DNA of 16,504 nt from Deltaproteobacteria bacterium (GTDB taxonomy: Bacteria; Desulfobacterota; Desulfobacteria; Desulfobacterales; Desulfobacteraceae). The stretch is from NCBI GenBank assembly GCA_019314105.1, contig JAFCZY010000228.1, positions 1-16,504 on the forward strand, in the 5' to 3' direction. Positions 5,246-16,504 of this stretch are shown in pieces (the stretch's first letter is position 1; each line of letters starts with the position of its first letter). The position numbers were made by a program, and so were the translations under genes. Below the pieces are notes generated by a model that saw only the letters and a list, made by a program, of their open reading frames with translations, was not told the DNA's origin and searched no databases.

Positions 5246-6160
5246 TCAGGATAATCGTTGAGGTTTCACACCCTGGATCTGAATATTTTGTATTGGGTTG
5301 ATAAAGGCGTGTGTCAGATGAATGTCGGTTAGATGAATATAGATCTCTCCATTGGGATGAATCCCCCGGATCTTCCCGTCATGCAAAAACCATTGTAATA
5401 GTATTTTGGACAGGCGTTTACGGTTTATCTTTTCAGGATTTTCCAGGGTGTAAAAGGGAGTTGATTCCGGCAGGGTTCCTTCTGAATCCATGAGATGTTT
5501 CATAAAGTTAAGGATACGGGAAAGCCTTAACAGAGTAGCCGCTTCGATTCTTGTCGTTGTATTATCCAATGGAAGTGCAGTCGATCGCATCAGGTTGAAA
5601 TGATCCGGTAAAATCTTATTGTTTTTACAAATCTCATAATCAAGGCTGCCAGGGGCCGGATAAAAAATGGACAGACCCACAAGGGTTCTTTTTTGAGCAA
5701 GATATAAAAGATCCTTTAATGAACTCTCTGCTGTCTGACCGGGTGCGGCTGCAATGATGTATGAAACCGATTCAAGACCATATTTTTGTGAAAGATCAAG
5801 TGCCTTTTCAAAGGCTTTTCTGACATCAGGCCGGTTGAATTTAGCCAGCTGGGTTTTTGAGGTTGATCCCAATGACAGATTAAGTGTTTTAAATCCGCAC
5901 GTTTTCATTAAGGAGACAATCTCTTCATCTATGGCAGGCGGGTAAAGACCGTTCATGGCGCGCAGTTCAACATTTTTATTTTTAAAATAGAGCTTTATCT
6001 TTGAAAAAAGTGTTATAAACCATTTTTTGTTTAAACAGAGATTTTCATCTTCAAAGTCAATAAAGCCGACATCAACGTCTTTGGATTGTTGTTCCAACAT
6101 ATTCATAGCTGTATCCAAAATGCCTGAAAGCGTGAAAAAGAGAAAAAGAAGACCTATCAC
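5246..6160 (-). pseudogene. N-terminally truncated radical-SAM protein (B12-binding-type), lacks the Fe-S motif
   Basis: The 304-codon frame resembles the second half of cobalamin-dependent radical-SAM proteins: FIDFEDENL, ELRAMNGLYPP, LMKTCGFKTLNLSLGS and IIAAAPGQT, followed by FYPAPGSLDYEIC. The family's cobalamin domain and the CxxxCxxC loop that binds the catalytic [4Fe-4S] cluster should come before this. Only about 30 residues precede FIDFEDE, and no such cysteine group exists anywhere in the frame. The other minus-strand frames upstream of 6160 show stops and no cysteine motif. The GTG at 6160 followed by a hydrophobic stretch is probably an accidental start. An inner ATG near 6106 is the alternative. 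The gene is therefore most likely a decaying 5'-deleted remnant. It converges on apt. Confidence 0.7.
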
Positions 6161-6246
6161 TGTCAGATAAAAGTTATGGTGTACGTATCATGTTTTAAAA
6201 ATAAATAAAAATGGTTAAAAAGATTATTGAAAAAATCTGATTTCCC

Positions 6247-6275
6247 TTGCTTAAAAATTATTATGTTGACATATT
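6247..6275 (+). promoter_or_regulatory. possible sigma70-type promoter of the PAS-sigma54 activator
   Basis: TTGCTT (6247-6252) and CATATT (6270-6275) are separated by 17 bp. They would start transcription just before the A-run, consistent with translation from TTG 6308. The match is only moderate in AT-rich DNA. Confidence 0.25.
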
Positions 6276-6281
6276 TAAAAG

Positions 6282-6299
6282 AAAAAAAAAAAAAAAAAA
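6282..6299 (+). repeat. run of 18 consecutive A
   Basis: An uninterrupted A18 tract lies directly before the GGA of the likely ribosome-binding site of the activator gene. If translation began at the upstream TTG 6227 or ATG 6263, the run would encode consecutive lysines inside the protein. With the TTG 6308 start it lies in the leader. Length could vary by slippage or sequencing error. Confidence 0.95.
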
Positions 6300-6307
6300 G
6301 GACACCT

Positions 6308-7669
6308 TTGGATACATTCACCCAGAATACAACTGAAATCATTCTTGAAAGCATATCTGACGGTGTTTTTACGGTTGATCATGAGTGGAAAATTATGTCA
6401 TTTATTAATCGTGCGGCTGAAAAAATTACCGGTATAGCACGAAAAGATGCCATTGGCCGGTATTGCTGGAATGTGTTTCGATCAAATATGTGCCAGGATG
6501 AATGTGCACTAAAAAAAACCATGCAGGAAGGCAAGTCATTTTTCAGCAGTTCCACGTATATTGTTAATAGTCAGAAGAAGCGGATTCCCACTACTGTTTT
6601 CACTGCTTTGTTAAAAGATAAAAAAGGCAATATTATCGGTGGGGTTGAGACTTTCAGGGATCACAGACTTGTGGAGGAATTACGAAAAAAACTTTATGGC
6701 AGTTTTCAAATGGGAGATATGATCAGCCGCAGCCAGGCAATGAGAAATATCTTTAAACTCCTGCCGAAAGTCTCTCAAAGTGACAGCACCGTACTGATCA
6801 GAGGGGAAACCGGTACAGGAAAAGAATTGATAGCAAAGGCGATTCATGATTTGAGCCCAAGAAAGGATAACCCCTTTGTCGCGATCAATTGCGGGGCACT
6901 TCCGGATACGCTTCTGGAATCGGAATTGTTCGGGTATAAAGCAGGTGCCTTTACCCATGCAACTAAAAATAAGCCGGGATTATTTGCCACGGCAAATAAA
7001 GGGACTATCCTTTTGGATGAAATTGGAGATACGAGCCCTTCGTTTCAGGTAAAGCTTCTTCGGGTTTTGGAGGAGAAGGCATGTTTGCCCCTTGGCGCCG
7101 TTAAAAAGGAAAAATCAGATATAAGAGTCATTGCCGCCACAAATAAAAATTTGTCTAAAATGGTTGATGCGAATACATTCAGACAGGATCTTTTTTACCG
7201 CATTAATGTGGTGCAATTAAAATTGCCTCCGCTGCGACAAAAGATGGAGGATATCCCCCTCCTTGTAGAACATTTTATCGCCAACCTGAATAAAATACGG
7301 GGGAAATCTGTGAGCGGAATAGACAAAACAGCTCTTGGGATCTTGATGGCACATGATTACCCGGGAAATATAAGAGAGCTTGAAAATATTATCGAACATG
7401 CGTTTGTGCTGTGTTCCAAAGGGGATATCACAAAGGAGCATCTGCCTTCCACGCTTACACGGCAATCCCTGATAGAAATAGAAGATAATGCGTCGCAGTT
7501 TCCCTTGAAAGCCGCAGAAATTAAAGTCATTAAGATATTTTTGAAAAAAAATAATTATGGCCGCAAAGCCACTGCCAAAGATCTGGGTATAGACAAAAGC
7601 ACATTGTTTCGAAAAATCAATAAACTTGGAATCAATCTTCCTAAAATCGACGGGCGATTTAAAAGATGA
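6308..7669 (+). CDS. PAS-domain sigma54-dependent transcriptional activator (PAS-AAA+-Fis)
   Basis: Counting from TTG 6308 the protein has 453 residues. Residues ~10-125 form a PAS domain containing Cys53, Cys62 and Cys66 (C-x8-C-x3-C), a possible redox or metal sensor. An AAA+ domain follows with Walker A GETGTGKE (166-173), a GAFTHA loop (213-218) instead of the standard GAFTGA, Walker B ILLDEIGD (234-241), sensor I VIAATNKN and sensor II YPGNIRELEN. A Fis-type helix-turn-helix (~418-440) closes it. TTG 6308 is preferred because AAAGGA ends 5 nt before it, the PAS homology begins there, and the A18 run stays outside the protein. TTG 6227 and ATG 6263 are also in frame. The gene lies immediately upstream of two sigma54 promoters that share TTGCA-type palindromic sites, so it is the likely activator of the NifX-like and Hdr operons. 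This parallels the sigma54-controlled orange-protein operons of Desulfovibrio vulgaris. Confidence 0.9.
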   Translation: MDTFTQNTTEIILESISDGVFTVDHEWKIMSFINRAAEKITGIARKDAIGRYCWNVFRSNMCQDECALKKTMQEGKSFFSSSTYIVNSQKKRIPTTVFTALLKDKKGNIIGGVETFRDHRLVEELRKKLYGSFQMGDMISRSQAMRNIFKLLPKVSQSDSTVLIRGETGTGKELIAKAIHDLSPRKDNPFVAINCGALPDTLLESELFGYKAGAFTHATKNKPGLFATANKGTILLDEIGDTSPSFQVKLLRVLEEKACLPLGAVKKEKSDIRVIAATNKNLSKMVDANTFRQDLFYRINVVQLKLPPLRQKMEDIPLLVEHFIANLNKIRGKSVSGIDKTALGILMAHDYPGNIRELENIIEHAFVLCSKGDITKEHLPSTLTRQSLIEIEDNASQFPLKAAEIKVIKIFLKKNNYGRKATAKDLGIDKSTLFRKINKLGINLPKIDGRFKR

Positions 7670-7921: not shown

Positions 7922-8470
7922 ATGAAAATTGGTATAAGTTCAACAGGAAAAGATATGAATTCCCAGATCGATCCTCGATTTGGCAGATGTGCTTATTTTA
8001 TGATTATACAGACAGATGATATGAGTTTTGATGTGGTTGAGAATGAGTACAAATCCATGGGAGGCGGCGCGGGTATCCAGGCGGCGAATTTTATACATTC
8101 AAAGGATGTTAAGACTGTTTTGACGGGTAATTGCGGTCCCAATGCCATGAATGTGTTCTCTGAATGCAACATTGATGTTGTCACAGGACAGGCAGGGGTC
8201 ATCAAAGATGTTGTGGGAAGGTTTAAAAAAGGTGAATTAAAATTATCAGTTACTCCGACGGTTAACGAAAAATTCGGAGTGGCTGATGATACGGGTCAAG
8301 GCAACAATGGATCACAAGGCCAGGGAAGAGGTATGGGAGGCGGACGAGGAATTGGCCGTGGGCGCGGCATTGGCGGTGGCGGTCGAGGAATGGGCGGTGG
8401 TGGTGGACAAGGTATGGGCGGTGGACGTGGTATGGGAGGCGGACAAGGCATGGGACGCGGTAACCGTTAA
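7922..8470 (+). CDS. NifB/NifX-family metal-cluster-binding protein with Gly/Met/Arg-rich tail
   Basis: Residues 1-~115 match the dinitrogenase iron-molybdenum-cofactor (NifX/NifY/NifB C-terminal) fold: MKIGISSTGKDMNSQIDPRFGR at the start, a central GGGAGIQAANFI, and VLTGNCGPNA. Members bind Fe-S or Mo-containing clusters. Those encoded beside sigma54 activators in sulfate reducers belong with the orange-protein group, whose type member carries a Mo-Cu-S cluster. Residues ~125-182 form a low-complexity tail of GMGGGRG/GIGRGRG-like units with five methionines and no cysteine. It resembles tails on other environmental NifX-like proteins, and its role is unknown. AAAGGAG at 7907-7913 precedes the ATG by 8 nt. 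The gene is first in a sigma54 operon with a second NifX-fold protein. No nitrogenase genes are in view, so a nitrogen-fixation role is not supported. Confidence 0.88.
   Translation: MKIGISSTGKDMNSQIDPRFGRCAYFMIIQTDDMSFDVVENEYKSMGGGAGIQAANFIHSKDVKTVLTGNCGPNAMNVFSECNIDVVTGQAGVIKDVVGRFKKGELKLSVTPTVNEKFGVADDTGQGNNGSQGQGRGMGGGRGIGRGRGIGGGGRGMGGGGGQGMGGGRGMGGGQGMGRGNR
8294..8467 (+). repeat. in-gene low-complexity repeat encoding the Gly/Met/Arg tail
   Basis: Degenerate short units (GGTATGGGAGGCGGACGAGG-like) repeat through the 3' third of the NifX-like gene. This stretch is much richer in G than its surroundings. Unit number is a likely site of length variation between strains. Confidence 0.8.
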
Positions 8471-8521
8471 AATTGATGATAGAGTCTTAAAATTGCATTG
8501 TTACACAATTTTGGTTCTGGA

Positions 8522-8536
8522 TGGCACGCTCTTGGC
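8522..8536 (+). promoter_or_regulatory. possible internal sigma54-like promoter between the two NifX-like genes
   Basis: TGGCACGCTCTTGGC has a perfect -24 element and GC at the right distance, but T is replaced by G in the -12 element. A TTGCA half-site lies close upstream (8493-8497) inside a 7-bp inverted repeat (8489-8495/8506-8512). That is nearer than usual for an activator site. The call is tentative. Confidence 0.3.
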
Positions 8537-8569
8537 GATACATCTTAATTCAAGGGAGGAAAATTTAGG

Positions 8570-8923
8570 ATGAAAGTTGCAATTACGGTTTGGGATGAGA
8601 AAATTTCTCCTGTTTTTGATTCTGCTCACAAGCTTTTAATTGCGGACATCAAAAATAAAAAAATAAAAAATATATCCTATAAATCCTTTGACCCGGAATT
8701 AGAGGCACGCCTTGCAGAGGAACTAAGTCTTATAGGCATTGAGGTTCTTATCTGCGGCGCTATTTCTCAAGCGTATTCAACATTGATTGAGGCAAGGCCC
8801 ATTCAGTTAATCCCTTTTATCAATGGTAATGTTAACGAAGTTCTTGAATCCTATGTTAAAGGCAACCCTCTTGCCCCTGCTTTTTTAATGCCGGGATGCA
8901 GGGAAGAGGAAGAAAGTCCTTAG
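8570..8923 (+). CDS. second NifB/NifX-family (orange-protein-like) cluster-binding protein
   Basis: The 117-residue single-domain protein begins MKVAITVWDEKISPVFDSAHKL, the hallmark N-terminal strand-loop of the short NifX-like group. ELEARLAEELSLIGIEVLICGAIS and IPFINGNVNEVLESYVKG complete the alpha/beta fold. A tail with LMPGCREEEE carries one of only two cysteines (the other is in LICGAIS). It may bind or deliver a metal-sulfur cluster, possibly with the tailed homologue 99 bp upstream in the same operon. The pair lacks the MinD-type Fe-S ATPases that accompany orange-protein genes in Desulfovibrio. The start codon is set by GGGAGG at 8554-8559. The exact cluster and partner are unknown. 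Confidence 0.82.
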   Translation: MKVAITVWDEKISPVFDSAHKLLIADIKNKKIKNISYKSFDPELEARLAEELSLIGIEVLICGAISQAYSTLIEARPIQLIPFINGNVNEVLESYVKGNPLAPAFLMPGCREEEESP

Positions 8924-9063: not shown

Positions 9064-9078
9064 TGGCATGTTGTTTGC
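9064..9078 (+). promoter_or_regulatory. sigma54 (-24/-12) promoter of the kinase-Hdr operon
   Basis: TGGCATGTTGTTTGC, preceded by C and followed by T, fits CTGGCAC-N5-TTGCW with one mismatch. The expected start is near 9090, about 20 nt before the kinase ATG. Confidence 0.85.
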
Positions 9079-9110
9079 TCTTTAAGACAAACAACACAGA
9101 GAGGAGTTTT

Positions 9111-10310
9111 ATGGCCCTGCCAGTAAATTGGAAGATACTTTTGATAGATGATGATGAAGATATTCGGGATATCATGTCTATCACCCTGAAAGATGCCGGA
9201 TATTCAGTCATCTGTGCCCCGGACGGGCATACAGGTCTCATGCTTGCTGCAAGAGAAGAACCTCAGATTGTGATTACTGATATTAAAATGCCGGGGATGA
9301 GCGGTCTTGAAGTTCTCGAGAAAATAAAAAAAATAAAGCCTGAAACTGAAGTTATTGTGACCACAGGGTTTGGCGATATCAAAAAGGCGGTTAAAGCCTT
9401 ACAATATGATGCCTCTGATTTTATTTCAAAACCCATTGATGATGCTGCCCTGCATACGGCATTAAAACGAGCCCGACAACGATATATTGATAAAAAACAA
9501 TTATCGGATTACACCACCCTTCTTGAAAGGGATCTTAAAACCATGGAGCAGGAAGTGTCGAATCAGGCAAAACTGCTTCACCGGGAAAAAATGGTATCGC
9601 TGGGACGTCTTGCTGCAAGCATGGTTCATGAAATCAACAATCCTTTGTCTGGAATTTTGAACTATATCCGGCTCATGATCCGTATCAGCAAAAAAGGCAA
9701 TCATTTGAAATCAGACCTGACACCGGAACAGCGACAGGAGCAGGCCGATAAATTTAATTCCTATCTGGAAATTATCGAATCTGAAACCCAGCGGTGTTCT
9801 GACCTTGTGTCCGGTTTGTTGAAGTTTTCACGGAAAACAAATCTGGAACAAAAAAGTATTGATGTTACAGATTTTATTCAACACAGCCTTTTGTTGTGCA
9901 ACCATAAACTTGAGTTGAGCAATATTGTGTTAAACGTCAGGTGTAATCCTGATGTCCCCCCTGTTTTTGGAGATTTCAACCAATTGGAACAATGTATGAT
10001 TAACCTGATTTTTAATGCCATTGATGCCATGGAAAATGGTGGAGATCTGAAGATTGAAACAAGTTTTGATCCGGAAGAAAAACTTGTTTTCATCTCTATA
10101 AAAGACAATGGGAAGGGTATTTCAAAAGAGGACTTAAATTTTATTTTTGAGCCTTTTTTTACAACGAAAAATGATGGATACGGGGTAGGGCTGGGGCTGT
10201 CGTCAGCCTATGGAATTATCGAAAAACATAAAGGCACCATTGTTGTGGAAAGCCGGTTGGGTTTCGGGTCTGAATTTATCATTAAACTTCCAGAGGTTAA
10301 AGAAAATTAA
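9111..10310 (+). CDS. soluble receiver-histidine kinase (REC-HisKA-HATPase)
   Basis: The 399-residue protein has no membrane segment. Residues 8-122 form a receiver domain with acidic residues 13-15, phospho-acceptor Asp57 (VITDIKMPG), Thr84/85 and Lys107. A coiled stretch (~127-165) leads to the HisKA H-box with His173 (MVHEINNPLSG). The ATPase domain shows the N-box around Asn302, DNGKG (332-336), FEPFFTTK (346-353) and GVGLGLS (358-364). It therefore takes its input from another kinase or a partner, not from its own sensor domain. ATG 9111 follows GAGAGGAG at 9099-9106. The TTG at 9075 lies inside the sigma54 promoter and is rejected. No DNA-binding response regulator follows. The receiver nearest downstream lies inside the HdrA-like protein at 15382, in the same apparent operon, making that protein a candidate phosphorylation target (inference). 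Confidence 0.9.
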   Translation: MALPVNWKILLIDDDEDIRDIMSITLKDAGYSVICAPDGHTGLMLAAREEPQIVITDIKMPGMSGLEVLEKIKKIKPETEVIVTTGFGDIKKAVKALQYDASDFISKPIDDAALHTALKRARQRYIDKKQLSDYTTLLERDLKTMEQEVSNQAKLLHREKMVSLGRLAASMVHEINNPLSGILNYIRLMIRISKKGNHLKSDLTPEQRQEQADKFNSYLEIIESETQRCSDLVSGLLKFSRKTNLEQKSIDVTDFIQHSLLLCNHKLELSNIVLNVRCNPDVPPVFGDFNQLEQCMINLIFNAIDAMENGGDLKIETSFDPEEKLVFISIKDNGKGISKEDLNFIFEPFFTTKNDGYGVGLGLSSAYGIIEKHKGTIVVESRLGFGSEFIIKLPEVKEN

Positions 10311-10345
10311 GATTAAAAATAATATAAATCAAATTGGGGGTATCC

Positions 10346-13300
10346 ATGCCTGAGAAGCTTCCGCCTGGGAAGACGATTCATTTGAGGACTCAACCGTTTA
10401 AAATCGGTTTTTACATTTGCCATTGTGGATTAAATATTGCGAGCAAAGTGGATGTTGAAGCTGTTCGGGATTATGTCAAAACCCTTGAAGGGATTGAGGT
10501 GTCAAGGGATTATAAATTCATGTGTTCAGATCCAGGTCAAAGCATGATTGAAAAGGATATCCGGGAACTGGGACTGAATCGCGTAGTGGTGGCATCTTGT
10601 TCCCCGAGACTTCATGGGAAAACATTTATGGAGGCCTGCAGGCGGGCAGGACTCAATCCCTATTATTTTCAAATGTGCTCGGTGAGAGAACAGGTCTCCT
10701 GGGTGACAAAGGACGGTGCGCGGGCGACTCAGAAAGCAAAACATCTGGTCACGGCTGCCATTCAGCGCGTGAAGTTTCATACCCACCTTGAAACAAAAAT
10801 ATCAGGGGTTAACCCGGATGTGGTGATTGTCGGCGGTGGCATTGCTGGCATGCAGGCAGCCATTGATATTGGTAATTCAGGCCACACGGCATACCTGATT
10901 GAAAAAGATACCACCATTGGCGGTCATATGCTTCAGTTTGACAAAACTTTTCCTACCCTTGACTGTGCCGCCTGTATCGGCACGCCTAAAATGGTGGAAG
11001 TCGGGCAAAATTCCAATATTAAATTATTCAGTTTTAGTGAAGTGACCCATGTCTCTGGCTTCATTGGAAATTTCATAGTGGATATTAAGCGAAAACCCCG
11101 GTATATTAACGAGAATCTTTGTACTGCATGTGGAGAATGTGCAAGTGTTTGCCCGGTTTCCATTCCCAACCCATGGGATATGGGAATGGAAAAAAGAAAG
11201 GCAATTGGCCGGGCGTTTCCTCAGGCCATTCCCATTACCTTTAATATCGAGAAAAAAGACAGGGCTCCCTGTCGATTAACCTGCCCTGCCGGGATCAATG
11301 TCCAGGGATATATTCAATTGATTGGTCAGAAAAAATATGACAAGGCCGCATCTCTGGTGATGGAGAAGGCTCCTTTTCCCGGGGTTTTGGGAAGGGTCTG
11401 CCCCCATCCCTGCGAGGCTGAGTGCCGGCGCAAACTGGTGGATAAACCCATTGCCATCAAGGAGCTGAAACGATTTGCGGCAGACAGGGCAAATCTTGAA
11501 GCAAAAGAACTTCCTGAAATAATCGACCGGGAAGAGAAGATCGCTGTAATCGGGGCAGGGCCTGCCGGCTTAACCGCTGCTTATTTTCTGCGACTCAAAG
11601 GATATCAGGTCACGGTTTTTGAAAAACTGCCGGTTCCCGGCGGGATGTTGAAAACAGGAATTCCAGACTACAGGCTGCCCTCTGATATCCTTGATAAAGA
11701 AATAAATTATATTCTGGCCCACGGGATTAGTCTTGTGCCCAACGCCGCCTTTGGATCTGATATTACATTTGAAGATCTGAAACAGGACGGGTTTCAGGCC
11801 ATCTTTTTAAGCTCCGGTGCTCATGAATCTCTTACGCTTGGGCTTGGTGGGGAAGATACGATAAAGGGTGTTATTGATTCCATTTCATTTCTGAGGGATG
11901 TGAACCTGGGCCATAAAACTGGCTGCGGCAAAAAAGTGATGATCGTTGGCGGCGGCAATGTGGCCATAGATGCGGCAAGGTGTGCAAAAAGAATCGGCGA
12001 CTGTGATGTTTCCATTATTTATCGGCGGACAAGACAGGAAATGCCGGCCTATGAGGAAGAAATTATAGGAGGTCTTGAAGAGAATGTCGAACTGCTTACC
12101 CTTACTGCACCCACTAAAATTATCAGCAAAGATGGCAGGGTTGTCGGCCTTGAGTGCATCAAAAACGAACTGGGTGAAATGGATGCATCCGGGCGACGGA
12201 GACCGGTCAATATTCCTGGGTCTGAATTTATTATCGACTGTGATACCATTATCCCGGCCATTGGTCAGAGGACAGATTTATCCTGGGCAGATTCCATGCC
12301 CGGTCTTGAGATTACAAAATACAATAGGATAAAAGTAGATCCGTCAACACTTCAAACATCCCTTGAGGATGTTTTTGCAGGAGGGGATATGGTAACCGGT
12401 CCTGCTAGTGTGATTGAGGCTATCGCCCAGGGGCGAAGGGCAGCCATTGGTATCGACACCTATATCAATAAAGCTGAAACAGACTCAGACAGAACAGATC
12501 TGGTTGAAATGAATCACAGTGATACACAGACAAACCAGAGTGAAATTCAGGAAAATTATTCAGATATTCCTTTAAATACTATGATTCAAGAAAGGGTTCG
12601 TGTTCAATATAGTGATCCTGAAGAAAGGGTCCACTCCTTTGATGAAATTGAAGCCACCCTGACAGAGGAGCAGGCCATAAAGGAAGCCCAAAGGTGTTTG
12701 AATTGTGCGACCTGCTGTGAGTGTATGGAATGTGTCACGGTATGTGAGGCAAAAGCTATTGATCATCTTATGAAAGAAGAGACCTTGCAGATCGCTGCCG
12801 GCAGTATTATTCTTGCAACGGGGTATGATACCCTGGAACCATCGCCCATGAAACAATTCGGGTATGGCAGGTTCCCCAATGTATTTTCAGCTCTTGAGTT
12901 TGAACGTCTCAGCAATGCCACCGGCCCCACTGGTGGGAAGATCCTGATCCGGGACGAACATAATGAATTTACAAAACAGCCCAAAAGCGTCGCAATCGTT
13001 CATTGTGTTGGAAGTCGGGATGTGAATTATCACGAATACTGTTCAAGGGTTTGCTGCATGTATGCCTTAAAATATACGCATTTGATCAAGGAAAAAGTAG
13101 GGCATGATACAAAAGTGTATGATTTTTATATTGATATGCGGTGTTTTGGTGAAGGGTATGAAGAATTTTATCAACGATGCCAAGAAGAGGGAACGATTTT
13201 TATCCGGGGAAAAGTGGCCCAGATTTCGGATAAGCCAAAGAATTCTTCTGAACAAGGAAAACTGATTGCCATTGCAGAAGATACCCTTTTGGGGGAACTG

Positions 13301-13759
13301 GTTCGGGTCCCGGTGGATATGGTAATTCTCTGTACCGCTATCCAGGCAAGAGAAGATGCCGGAGATGTGGGGCGGGTATTTGGGGTCAATCAGGGAGCGG
13401 ATGGATTTTTTCTTGAAGAGCATCCAAAACTTGCTCCGTTGAATACGGCTACAGACGGAGTATTCCTTTGTGGATGCTGTCAGAAGCCCATGGATATACC
13501 GGATACGGTGTCACAGGCATCTGGCGCGGCCGTAAAAGCCTTGTCACTTGCCACAAAAGGCCAGGTTGATATTGCGCCCACTATTTCTTTTATCGATCCC
13601 GATGTCTGTATCGGATGTAAAACCTGTATCAGCCTTTGTCCGTACACTGCCATTGAATTTGATGAGAGAAGACAGGTGTCTGTTGTTAATGAAGCCATTT
13701 GCAAAGGATGCGGGAGTTGTTCCGGGGTTTGTCCCAGCGGTGCAGCAGGAAACGTTTGA
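10346..13759 (+). CDS. hdrA: HdrA-type flavin/iron-sulfur protein with inserted GltD (NADPH:glutamate synthase small-subunit-like) module
   Basis: This 1137-residue protein is a composite. Residues ~18-300 are HdrA: an N-terminal cysteine region (YICHCGLN, MCSDPG, VASCSPRLHG), the FAD site VIVGGGIAGMQAA (160-172), the FPTLDCAACIGTPKM cysteine motif and a [4Fe-4S] motif CTACGECASVC. Residues ~301-710 are GltD-like: APCRLTCPAGINVQGY with its own cysteines, FAD site VIGAGPAGLTAAY, dinucleotide site VMIVGGGNVAIDAAR and AGGDMVTGPASVIEAI. After a polar Asp/Ser/Asn linker (~709-745), HdrA resumes with CLNCATCCECMECVTVC (784-800), HCVGSRD and two closing [4Fe-4S] motifs (1088-1098, 1119-1129). It could bring NAD(P)H electrons into an electron-bifurcating Hdr complex. 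ATG 10346, preceded by GGGGG, is preferred over TTG 10334. It lies 35 bp after the kinase gene, in one operon. Confidence 0.92.
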   Translation: MPEKLPPGKTIHLRTQPFKIGFYICHCGLNIASKVDVEAVRDYVKTLEGIEVSRDYKFMCSDPGQSMIEKDIRELGLNRVVVASCSPRLHGKTFMEACRRAGLNPYYFQMCSVREQVSWVTKDGARATQKAKHLVTAAIQRVKFHTHLETKISGVNPDVVIVGGGIAGMQAAIDIGNSGHTAYLIEKDTTIGGHMLQFDKTFPTLDCAACIGTPKMVEVGQNSNIKLFSFSEVTHVSGFIGNFIVDIKRKPRYINENLCTACGECASVCPVSIPNPWDMGMEKRKAIGRAFPQAIPITFNIEKKDRAPCRLTCPAGINVQGYIQLIGQKKYDKAASLVMEKAPFPGVLGRVCPHPCEAECRRKLVDKPIAIKELKRFAADRANLEAKELPEIIDREEKIAVIGAGPAGLTAAYFLRLKGYQVTVFEKLPVPGGMLKTGIPDYRLPSDILDKEINYILAHGISLVPNAAFGSDITFEDLKQDGFQAIFLSSGAHESLTLGLGGEDTIKGVIDSISFLRDVNLGHKTGCGKKVMIVGGGNVAIDAARCAKRIGDCDVSIIYRRTRQEMPAYEEEIIGGLEENVELLTLTAPTKIISKDGRVVGLECIKNELGEMDASGRRRPVNIPGSEFIIDCDTIIPAIGQRTDLSWADSMPGLEITKYNRIKVDPSTLQTSLEDVFAGGDMVTGPASVIEAIAQGRRAAIGIDTYINKAETDSDRTDLVEMNHSDTQTNQSEIQENYSDIPLNTMIQERVRVQYSDPEERVHSFDEIEATLTEEQAIKEAQRCLNCATCCECMECVTVCEAKAIDHLMKEETLQIAAGSIILATGYDTLEPSPMKQFGYGRFPNVFSALEFERLSNATGPTGGKILIRDEHNEFTKQPKSVAIVHCVGSRDVNYHEYCSRVCCMYALKYTHLIKEKVGHDTKVYDFYIDMRCFGEGYEEFYQRCQEEGTIFIRGKVAQISDKPKNSSEQGKLIAIAEDTLLGELVRVPVDMVILCTAIQAREDAGDVGRVFGVNQGADGFFLEEHPKLAPLNTATDGVFLCGCCQKPMDIPDTVSQASGAAVKALSLATKGQVDIAPTISFIDPDVCIGCKTCISLCPYTAIEFDERRQVSVVNEAICKGCGSCSGVCPSGAAGNV

Positions 13760-14168
13760 ACCGGTTATTGTTGCTTTTGTCTGCAATTGGTGTACTTACA
13801 CGGCTGCAGATCTTGCAGGGACATCACGGTTATCCTATCCCTCAAATATTCGTCTGATCCGGGTCATGTGTACGGGAATGGTGGATCCTCAATATGTGAT
13901 CAAGGCCTTTTTGGAAGGCGCAGACGGTGTTCTGATCAGTGGATGTCACCCGGGAGATTGTCACTATATTAATGGAAATTATAAGGCAAGGCGCAGGGTT
14001 AAGCTGTTAAAAGAAATTCTTCCACGGTTTGGAATTGAAAAGGATCGATTGCGATTGACTTGGATCGGGGCAAGTGATGGCATTGAATTTGCCGAGGTTA
14101 TGACACAATTGAATGATCAAATAATTGAAATGGGACCTTCTCAGGCAAGCGTGAGCAAGGCGATATGA
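13740..14168 (+). CDS. mvhD: MvhD/FlpD-family [2Fe-2S] electron-transfer subunit
   Basis: The 142-residue protein carries the MvhD signature: FVCNWCTYTAADLAGTSR (Cys15, Cys18), VMCTGMVDP (Cys44) and SGCHPGDCHY (Cys69, Cys74). These ligate a [2Fe-2S] cluster. In methanogens MvhD links a hydrogenase or formate dehydrogenase to HdrA. The frame is open upstream inside hdrA. GTG 13740 is the best start because family homology begins a few residues later and the protein then has the usual length. It overlaps the hdrA stop by 20 bp and has only a weak GGGG-type ribosome-binding site, so translation may be coupled. The alternative is an HdrA-MvhD fusion, known in this protein family, broken by a one-base frameshift near 13740-13757. 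Confidence 0.85.
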   Translation: MQQETFEPVIVAFVCNWCTYTAADLAGTSRLSYPSNIRLIRVMCTGMVDPQYVIKAFLEGADGVLISGCHPGDCHYINGNYKARRRVKLLKEILPRFGIEKDRLRLTWIGASDGIEFAEVMTQLNDQIIEMGPSQASVSKAI

Positions 14169-14187: not shown

Positions 14188-15327
14188 ATGATGATTAAAT
14201 TAGCGACCGAAGAGAACAGTCTGACCAAAGGATTGCAGCAGTTTTTTAAACGACTTCTTGCGACAGAGGAAATTGACGCTCTTTTTTTGCCGGTCCGGTT
14301 AACCGCGTCTTCTTCCATAATGCCGTCTCTGGTGACGGATGCAGATCAGATAGAGAATGCAGTGCCGTTAAGCCCCGCCTTTCCGTTAAATTCGGGAAGG
14401 ATGGTGTCCCGGCTTTCCTATAAACTGTCGGGAAGGAAAACTGCTGTATTGCTACGACCCTGTGAGATGCGAGCATTTATTGAATTGATAAAACTCAAAC
14501 AAGGTTCCAGACAGGAATTGATTCTTATCGGGATGGATTGCCCCAAAGCACTGACCGCATCTGATTATACAGCGTATATGGAAAAAGATCCTTTGGCGGA
14601 TGATGCCTATATCCAAAAGGTATTTTCAGAAAAGGATGACACCCTTAATGGCTTTCATTTCAGCAGTGCCTGTCAGACCTGTGAGAATCCTTTTCCCGTT
14701 AATGCGGATATCAATATTTTCCTGCACGGGGTTGATCTTTCAGAGGGGGTGATGATGGACTCCGGCAGTGAGTCAGGCCAGAAAATTCTGGAAAGCCTGA
14801 AGATGCCGGAAGCATCCATGCCTGCAAATCGAGAAGAGATCGTGGCACAGATAAAAGAGGCAAATTCAATAGCAAATTCGGCAATGGTGAAAGACATTGA
14901 AGAAAAAACCAACAGCATACCCAAGCTCACTGCTTTTTTTGACCGGTGCATCAATTGCTATAACTGCCGGAACATGTGCCCGGTCTGCTATTGTAAAGAA
15001 TGTGTTTTCAATACAGATGTGTTTTATCATCAACCGGTTCAATACCATCAATGGGCAGAGAAAAAGGGAATTGTTAAGCTGCCCACGGATACGGTTTTTT
15101 ATCATCTCACCCGGCTGGCGCATATCAGTCATGCCTGTGTGGGATGCGGTCAATGTTCCAATGCATGTCCCAGTGATATAAATGTTTTTGAGCTTTTTAA
15201 GAGTGTGGCTCAACAGACCCAGGCAGCATTTGAATATTCACCCGGGACAGATGAAAACGACCCACCGCCTTTATCTGTTTTTCATGAAAAAGAGTTTGAG
15301 GATATTATTGGGATTGAAAGAGAATAA
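14188..15327 (+). CDS. FrhB/FdhB-like iron-sulfur (flavo)protein of the Hdr complex
   Basis: The 379-residue protein resembles the beta-subunit family of F420-hydrogenase/formate dehydrogenase: AVLLRPCEMRAFIELIKLKQ (87-106), LIGMDCPKALT and SACQTCENPFP in the N-terminal half. Dense cysteine motifs follow: DRCINCYNCRNMCPVCYCKEC (Cys254-Cys272) and CVGCGQCSNACP (317-328), enough for at least two [4Fe-4S] clusters. FrhB-type proteins bind FAD and reduce F420. Sulfate reducers do not generally rely on F420, so here it more likely delivers electrons from formate, NAD(P)H or ferredoxin to MvhD/HdrA. This is inference. ATG 14188 follows AAAGGA at 14172-14177, 19 bp after mvhD. The gene sits between mvhD and the second hdrA, which implies one complex. 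Confidence 0.85.
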   Translation: MMIKLATEENSLTKGLQQFFKRLLATEEIDALFLPVRLTASSSIMPSLVTDADQIENAVPLSPAFPLNSGRMVSRLSYKLSGRKTAVLLRPCEMRAFIELIKLKQGSRQELILIGMDCPKALTASDYTAYMEKDPLADDAYIQKVFSEKDDTLNGFHFSSACQTCENPFPVNADINIFLHGVDLSEGVMMDSGSESGQKILESLKMPEASMPANREEIVAQIKEANSIANSAMVKDIEEKTNSIPKLTAFFDRCINCYNCRNMCPVCYCKECVFNTDVFYHQPVQYHQWAEKKGIVKLPTDTVFYHLTRLAHISHACVGCGQCSNACPSDINVFELFKSVAQQTQAAFEYSPGTDENDPPPLSVFHEKEFEDIIGIERE

Positions 15328-15381
15328 CAGGCTCAACATGGTTTTTTATACTGCCATTTATTATTGGCGCTCGGAGGTAAA

Positions 15382-16504
15382 ATGAACAAGGCAATTGGTA
15401 AAACATTGGTTGCCGGGGCAGGATTGAGCGGTATCAGATCTGCACTGGATCTGGCTGAAACCGGATACAAGGTTCTGCTCATTGATACGTCGGATCATAT
15501 CGGTGGCCTTTTATGCCAGCTCGATAACCAGTTTCCCACATCCAAATGCGGGTATTGCAGGATGCTGCCCATGTTTGACAGGGATAAGTCCTCTCAACAT
15601 TGTCTGAGAAAAGGGCTTTTTCATGAAAACATAGAGATCCTTTTGTCAACACAATTGATGTCTGTTGAAGGGGAACCGGGTGATTTCAGAGTAACCCTTA
15701 AACAGAATCCTTCCTTGATTGATTCGTCTTTATGTACGGGGTGTGGTGAATGTGAACGAATTTGTCCTGTTCTTGTCAAGGATTCGTTTAATGAAGGGCT
15801 GACAAAAAGAAAAGCGGTTTATCTTCCGAGTCCGCAATCCTTTTCCAATACCTATACCATTGATTATACCGCATGCACACGGTGTGGAGAGTGTGAAAAA
15901 ATATGCCCGACAGGCGCTATTAAATTTACAGAACAGGAAAGAGAAAAATTCAAAATTCTGGTGGTGGATGATGAAAAAATTGTCCGGGATTCCATGAAAG
16001 AGTGGCTCAAGGAAGAGGGGTTCTCCGTAACCACTGCGGATTCAGGGCAAAAAGCCCTGGACCTGATGGAGGAGACGCCATTTAATATGATGCTGACCGA
16101 TATCAAGATGCCGGGTATGGATGGTGTTGAGCTGTTGGCAAAGGCAAAAGAAAAAAATGAAGACCTGTGTGTTATCATGATGACGGCTTATGCCGCTGTT
16201 GATTCCGCTGTGGAGGCCATGAAGCAGGGGGCGCTTGATTATCTGACCAAACCCTTTGATCCGGATGTACTGATTTCCATGACAAAAAAAGTCTATCATG
16301 AGTTTGAAATTGCCGAAGCAAGGGTTGAACAGGTGGATGCCCTGATTCTTGCCGGGGGCACACAGTTTTTTAAACCGGAAATGGGAAAAAACCCTTATGG
16401 TTACGGGGTCCTGCCCGGGGTTGTCACCGGAATGGAGTTTGAACGGCTTATCAGCGGTCCGGGGCCTGGTAAAGGGAAATTAATTCATCCGAACACCGGC
16501 AAAC
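15382..16504 (+). CDS. hdrA: HdrA-like flavoprotein with an inserted two-component receiver domain (3' end beyond window)
   Basis: 374 residues are visible and the frame runs off the right edge. It starts directly at the FAD fold (LVAGAGLSGIRSALDLAE, Gly12/14/17), without the N-terminal region of the first HdrA. The HdrA-type segment GGLLCQLDNQFPTSKCGYC (Cys45, Cys56, Cys59) and two [4Fe-4S] motifs follow (C118-C128 and C165-C175). Residues ~191-308 are then a complete receiver domain: VVDDE (194-198), phospho-acceptor Asp240 in LTDIKMPG, Thr268 (MMTAY) and Lys290 (YLTKPFD). HdrA sequence resumes at VDALILAGG (318-326) and GYGVLPGVVTGMEFERLISG. The receiver therefore sits inside the flavoprotein, at the point where the first HdrA carries GltD. 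All phosphorylation residues are present. The histidine kinase at 9111 in the same operon is the obvious candidate donor. GGAGG at 15373-15377 sets the start. Confidence 0.9.
   Translation, partial: MNKAIGKTLVAGAGLSGIRSALDLAETGYKVLLIDTSDHIGGLLCQLDNQFPTSKCGYCRMLPMFDRDKSSQHCLRKGLFHENIEILLSTQLMSVEGEPGDFRVTLKQNPSLIDSSLCTGCGECERICPVLVKDSFNEGLTKRKAVYLPSPQSFSNTYTIDYTACTRCGECEKICPTGAIKFTEQEREKFKILVVDDEKIVRDSMKEWLKEEGFSVTTADSGQKALDLMEETPFNMMLTDIKMPGMDGVELLAKAKEKNEDLCVIMMTAYAAVDSAVEAMKQGALDYLTKPFDPDVLISMTKKVYHEFEIAEARVEQVDALILAGGTQFFKPEMGKNPYGYGVLPGVVTGMEFERLISGPGPGKGKLIHPNTGK

Follow-up and report, generated by a model that had tools for sequence, protein, structure and literature searches.

The HdrA-receiver gene and its architecture

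The window considered here, a stretch of 16,504 nucleotides, is an entire contig (G000:C263) of the 2.70-Mb draft genome of a Desulfobacteraceae bacterium, and its 3' end falls within hdrA, a gene of the heterodisulfide reductase subunit A type. This gene begins at 15382 and encodes an HdrA-type flavoprotein with a full response-regulator receiver in its core. The open reading frame (ORF) spans 15364–16503 on the forward strand and the likely start is the ATG at 15382, with a GGAGG at 15373–15377; from this start the residue numbering of the first-pass annotation (Asp196/197, Asp240, Thr268 and Lys290) is reproduced. Selenocysteine at an in-frame TGA was considered and discarded, as the stops in loci L134 and L148 sit 5' of the start codon. 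The 374 residues encoded in the window comprise the start of the flavin adenine dinucleotide (FAD)-binding domain, two ferredoxin motifs, the full receiver and the return of the FAD domain, and Pfam recognises in them Response_reg (E 1.1e-32), Fer4 repeats and an N-terminal FAD/NAD motif. The corresponding stretches of relatives named Desulfobacula (L008, L009, L011 and L013) align to the window at 85–93%. Comparison with L008 places about 0.4 kb of unassembled sequence between this contig and contig C177 of the same genome, which carries, in the expected order, a 631-residue C-terminal HdrA frame (open at its 5' end), HdrC, HdrB and residues 1–597 of a kinase. Coordinates are given in Table 1.

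The receiver sits between the inserted ferredoxin domain and the point at which the HdrA FAD domain resumes, and the HdrA sequence is complete around it. The insertion is precise. The stretch before the receiver corresponds to positions 138–315 of the NCBIfam HdrA2 model and, in the full-length protein of L008, the best match beyond the receiver begins at 317; against PDB 8rvv_A the HdrA sequence ahead of the receiver ends at residue 316 and that following it begins at 311. The first-pass annotation was right to call it an insertion within HdrA and not a gene-end fusion. It had also held that HdrA continues past the receiver, and this is borne out both by contig C177 and by full-length orthologues of about 1150 residues, in which a domain search of the complete protein finds the resumed C-terminal HdrA part and then a second HdrA module. 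The end of the contig within the gene could suggest an assembly join or a chance open frame, but identical junctions are present in full-length proteins from many independent assemblies, single-contig genomes included, and this explanation is refuted.

The full-length protein, as seen in L008 and its relatives (the window holds the first third), has an FAD domain with an inserted ferredoxin domain, and a C-terminal ferredoxin domain. Conservation was assessed in the best 120 full-length relatives out of 4325 hits, picked by similarity to a receiver-bearing query, a set in which degenerate receivers are not sampled. The HdrA motif Cx12Cx3CC (Cys384, 397, 401 and 402), presumably the holder of the flavin-proximal cluster, is invariant in all 120, and a second set (Cys891, 902, 906 and 907) is found in 119, the one other row being gapped. 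Module 1 without its receiver lies within 1.9 Å of 8rwn over 420 residues, and module 2 within 2.9 Å of 7bkd over 556. The score against the curated NCBIfam model NF040770 is 610 bits, under its cut-off of 1100; homology and fold place the protein in the HdrA family, but it is not among the named methanogen proteins. It shares with HdrA of methanogen HdrABC (PDB 5odc, 7bkd, 8rwn and 8rvv) the FAD domain, the inserted ferredoxin, the Cx12Cx3CC motif and the C-terminal ferredoxin. It differs in having the receiver between the ferredoxin insert and the FAD domain, and two modules per chain, of which the first is without the HdrA N-terminal domain and the second without the inserted ferredoxin. 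Thioredoxin reductases have the same fold as the FAD domain of HdrA.

The receiver itself is intact. It has the (beta-alpha)5 fold with the acidic pair, the phospho-acceptor Asp, the Thr, the Lys and an aromatic switch residue, Tyr287, and all of these residues are invariant in the 120 relatives, in keeping with the first-pass description of a complete receiver. Columns conserved at 95% or more make up 49% of the receiver, compared with 45% of the N-terminal FAD part, 36% of the ferredoxin and 28% of the second FAD half. Over 47 loci the mean identity of the embedded receiver (0.676) is about that of the receiver of the neighbouring kinase (0.657), and the flanking HdrA parts are lower (0.593 and 0.503).

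Table 1. Features of the window; positions are those of the 16,504-nucleotide stretch
Feature	Position	Strand	Support
hdrA 5' part with embedded receiver, residues 1–374, running off the contig	15382..16504	+	GGAGG; alignment with L008
HdrA FAD domain, N-terminal part; GxGxxG; conserved Cys56, Cys59, Cys74	15382..15711	+	
Inserted HdrA ferredoxin domain, two Cx2Cx2Cx3C motifs	15712..15945	+	
Embedded receiver domain, residues 190–302	15949..16287	+	
Acidic pair Asp196/Asp197, codons	15967..15972	+	invariant, 120/120
Phospho-acceptor Asp240, codon	16099..16101	+	invariant, 120/120
Thr268, codon	16183..16185	+	invariant, 120/120
Lys290, codon	16249..16251	+	invariant, 120/120
Return of HdrA FAD domain (VDALILAGG...), cut by contig end	16315..16504	+	
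sigma54 activator with PAS, without receiver; upstream	6227..7669	+	
Two NifX-like genes (7922–8470, 8570–8923), between activator and kinase	7922..8923	+	
Soluble receiver-histidine kinase, directly before hdrL	9075..10310	+	
HdrL: HdrA module, GltD-like NAD(P)-binding module, HdrA C-terminal part	10334..13759	+	type named HdrL in PMC2702500 (portion consulted)
FlpD/MvhD (delta subunit); listed ORF start, true start probably further in	13548..14168	+	PF02662, E 2e-54
Iron-sulfur protein, weakly AsrA-like by profile, here labelled FdhB-like; precedes hdrA	14188..15327	+	

Relatives with and without the receiver

Many members of the Desulfobacterales, an order known for sulfate reduction, carry HdrA with an embedded receiver, usually beside sensor kinases. 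A search at the level of the order gave a match in 120 of 291 sampled genomes; 109 of the 121 match rows span the receiver and 12 end before it, one of the latter being a fragment of 199 residues. The family-level search gave matches in 39 of 86 genomes: in 25 the match covers the receiver, either in part or coming from the ferredoxin side, six have the receiver and no ferredoxin insert, and eight have no receiver. The phylum sample gave matches in 23 of 395 genomes, of which 15 run through the receiver (three degenerate) and eight do not. Proteins that keep the receiver and lack the inserted ferredoxin are encoded at L098–L103 (genomes G061, G062, G063, G066, G070 and G073) by ORFs of 936–959 residues. 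The family also includes HdlA5 of Desulfobacula toluolica (P0142, so named in UniRef), which has PF00072 and is mentioned in the portion consulted of PMC5109826.

The orthologues without a receiver serve as a natural control. Among 113 distinct loci, 83 are receiver-bearing, 25 receiver-less and four degenerate, and one (L149, a split gene) stands outside the counts. In the loci flanked by 6 kb or more on each side (49 receiver-bearing and 16 receiver-less), a kinase on the same strand within 8 kb was found in 41/49 and 3/16, respectively (Fisher 4.3e-6, a value that ignores relatedness), and on either strand in 44/49 and 4/16. A kinase with haem motifs, on either strand, accompanies 35 of the 49 and two of the 16. 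An earlier count, made without the last 20 stretches, was 37/45 against 2/12. The receiver-less loci L092, L094, L170 and L173 have a same-strand kinase downstream with free receiver genes beside it, and L127, a cut gene, has an upstream kinase and no free receiver gene.

A tree of HdrA with the receiver removed (76 rows, quick method, midpoint root) needs two label changes, one for a receiver-less clade of 15 rows (support 99) and one for the pair L090/L093. That pair is nested among receiver-bearing rows next to L113 (support 100) and looks like a loss of the receiver, whereas for the larger clade the tree is compatible with either gain or loss. No kinase was found within the stretches read of L090, L093 and L113; L114 and L115, from that group, have kinases on the opposite strand.

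Degenerate receivers are found in L035, in the database proteins P0089, P0091, P0098 and P0119, and in L162–L164, three genomes of family f112, where the HdrA receivers are without the acidic pair and the Thr. The last three loci have a hybrid kinase and a sigma54-type response regulator on the opposite strand, and none of the three has the haem-motif kinase.

Neighbouring genes and candidate kinases

The Desulfobacula relatives share the gene order PAS-sigma54 activator, NifX-like genes, receiver-kinase, HdrL, FlpD, FdhB-like protein, HdrA-receiver, HdrC, HdrB, membrane kinase and a further receiver-kinase. The soluble kinase at 9075 is a likely partner of the embedded receiver, and so are the haem-motif kinase and the receiver-kinase downstream of hdrB in relatives; of these two downstream kinases, the haem-motif kinase is present in the window genome as well (L182:2-1792, reverse strand). 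The kinases of the gene run bear receivers of their own. The Desulfobacula loci examined showed no DNA-binding response regulator encoded on the same strand as the operon. In the wider clade 17 loci were compared, and at 15 of them the receiver of HdrA is the sole one found on the strand outside kinases; the exceptions are L012 (a receiver gene of 135 residues) and L117 (a frame truncated where the stretch stops). At L034, L157 and L160 there is no hdrL in at least 6 kb upstream of the receiver-bearing hdrA, and L157 and L160 are also without a nearby kinase.

The commonest partner is the membrane kinase (L008:14921-17227, adjoining hdrB), whose periplasmic sensor carries CxxCH and Cx3-4CHxH motifs. 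Of 56 kinase homologues, 48 were kept and eight dropped for lacking 240 residues of sensor region; in all 48 the CxxCH lies between two transmembrane helices, as placed by hydropathy window only. Among the listed kinases, CxxCH was not seen in L028, L152 and L156. PF21563 is matched at E ≤0.01 by 44 of the 48, the first member falling under the curated cut-off, and the sensor has a weak profile match (E 0.012 and 0.33) to the chemoreceptor sensor domains 3b42 and 3b47, which we take to be Geobacter haem c sensors. The membrane kinase is predicted, from its motifs, to be a haem c sensor.

The origin of the embedded receiver was approached with a receiver tree of 145 rows, in which resolution is limited by the 112 columns. 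Forty-three embedded receivers group with three sigma54-type (NtrC/AtoC-type) receivers and one Usp-receiver protein (95/97), apart from the free receivers and those of the kinases. A Rosetta-stone relationship, with the free receiver as a detached copy, was rejected: none of 37 free receivers lies inside the embedded clade, and 25 group in a separate clade (99/96). A Usp-receiver-Usp protein follows hdrB at L030:14885-16306 and L179:13995-15305 (both forward strand; Pfam assignment for L030); the L030 copy falls in the embedded clade and that of L179 is outside the rows of the tree. To judge by these groupings, the receiver may be a portable cassette.

Several other genes deserve mention. The two NifX-like genes have a weak likeness to the C-terminal part of MrpORP and are kept before the kinase in the Desulfobacula relatives. 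At the start of the window the adjacent frames 2–568 and 565–1023 are both sigma54-activator-like, as if one gene had been split by a frameshift (real or from assembly), and the frame at 5246–6160 on the reverse strand (304 residues) has a weak, P-methyltransferase-like radical SAM match under the curated cut-offs. At L019:14254-20155 the receiver-bearing hdrA is followed by EtfBA, a membrane iron-sulfur oxidoreductase and an acyl-CoA ligase, as assigned by eye with no domain search, an arrangement suggestive of fatty acid oxidation in this lineage. At L092:647-2983, where the operon layout differs, hdrL is preceded by a protein of about 780 residues in which Pfam recognises two iron-sulfur parts and two CCG (HdrB-like) parts; proteins alike in size and place are found at L016, L094, L095, L097 and L108.

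Possible roles of the embedded receiver

The activity of HdrA, in a complex of HdrL, FlpD, FdhB-like protein, HdrA, HdrC and HdrB, is probably controlled post-translationally by two-component phosphorylation. The membrane kinase, with its periplasmic Cache/PAS-like sensor and predicted c-type haem, would respond to a redox or ligand cue from outside the cytoplasm; Asp240 would then be phosphorylated by this kinase or by a soluble receiver-kinase of the same gene run, and phosphorylation would shift the alpha4-beta5-alpha5 face of the receiver and so alter either electron transfer or complex assembly. Helix 5 of the receiver leads almost at once into a strand of the HdrA FAD domain. Here we infer one complex of these subunits, haem binding and phosphotransfer, together with the direction and size of the effect and the electron carriers. 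The HdrA and EtfAB families seem to rely on significant conformational changes (PMC9304861, citing Vigil 2021 and Watanabe 2021; portion consulted), which would offer the receiver a point of action. A hinge acting only by a swing of the ferredoxin is weakened by the six genomes with a receiver and no ferredoxin insert. The first-pass annotation took the redox flavoprotein itself to be the likely output, and this is supported in the close relatives, where kinases in the gene run without a same-strand DNA-binding regulator make the flavoprotein a natural output. It is possible, though we would stop short of calling it probable, that a phosphorelay reading periplasmic redox through the haem sensor gates a bifurcating flavoprotein at its FAD-domain receiver, without transcription, across much of the Desulfobacterales.

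A number of observations weigh against such control. Eight of the 49 receiver-bearing loci are without a same-strand kinase within 8 kb, and L019, L031, L113, L157 and L160 are kinase-free on either strand within that distance; conversely, a same-strand kinase is present at three of the 16 receiver-less loci and at two of three loci with a degenerate receiver (three of three on either strand). Since the Fisher value ignores relatedness and the HdrA tree needs only two changes, the association reflects few independent events. Nor do the kinases prove that HdrA is the output: a free receiver gene precedes hdrL at many receiver-bearing loci, four of the 41 with a same-strand kinase (L021, L148, L155 and L161) have a same-strand receiver-sigma54 gene, and in L021 every counted kinase adjoins that gene. 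HdlA5BC was undetected in D. toluolica, as related second-hand in the portion consulted of PMC5109826, and the system may therefore be used rarely. Six genomes retain the receiver without the ferredoxin insert, which makes the ferredoxin less likely as the sole target of the switch.

The same retention would fit a receiver that controls assembly rather than electron flow, with phosphorylation setting the oligomeric state of an HdrABC dimer or the docking of a partner. Receivers of the NtrC type dimerise through alpha4-beta5-alpha5 upon phosphorylation, the embedded receivers group in the tree with a few of that type, and the title of 8rwn is Hdr(ABC)2; we nevertheless regard this reading as unlikely. 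Less likely again is a phosphate sink or reverse sensor, in which the redox state of HdrA would alter dephosphorylation of the receiver and feed back on the kinases and thereby on transcription. The receivers of the gene-run kinases would suit such a role and the receiver-sigma54 gene of the four loci could be its output, but in the Desulfobacula loci, with no operon-strand DNA-binding regulator and an upstream activator that has no receiver, there is no visible output. That a captured receiver fold acts only as a rigid spacer, with no phosphorylation, we consider very improbable: receivers without the acidic pair and Thr do persist in the three f112 genomes, L035 and some database proteins, but the catalytic residues are invariant in 120/120 and the existence of receiver-less relatives indicates that a spacer is not needed.

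What is new here is the joining of two known kinds, a receiver and HdrA, in one chain, and, beyond the first-pass annotation, the two HdrA modules, further likely kinase partners and orthologues with no receiver or a degenerate one. Response regulators with enzymatic outputs include CheB, GGDEF/EAL proteins and a fused response regulator/thioredoxin reductase, all of them known as end fusions to an output domain; the present protein likewise has receiver and enzyme in one chain, but with the receiver inserted inside the enzyme domain. In the portion consulted of PMC3333781, the FlxABCD-HdrABC type operon DVU2405-2397 of Desulfovibrio vulgaris is regulated by DVU2394, so that heterodisulfide reductase genes are there also under two-component control; that control is transcriptional and exerted by a separate response regulator, whereas the receiver described here belongs to the enzyme itself. 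Locus VIII of Desulfobacterium autotrophicum HRM2 has a similar layout, with tandem hdrL/hdrA (HdrA4/HdrL), hdrB, hdrC and a formate dehydrogenase B gene (PMC2702500), and the portion of that text consulted, supplementary figures aside, makes no mention of a receiver. As the first-pass annotation had supposed, no functional description of a receiver in HdrA was found in the open-access literature searched.

In databases the 1150-residue protein is named either response regulator or heterodisulfide reductase subunit A, and either name hides one half of it. Bifurcating flavoproteins decide how anaerobes split electrons among ferredoxin, pyridine nucleotides and disulfides. Sulfate reducers related to these hosts are common in marine sediments. 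If the receiver gates the enzyme, it would provide a chemically addressable switch (beryllofluoride, D240A) on a bifurcating complex, for which orthologues that lack the receiver or the ferredoxin insert, or have a degenerate receiver, already offer controls. Together with its usual place beside sensor kinases, the embedded receiver raises the possibility that cells switch this energy enzyme through phosphorylation.
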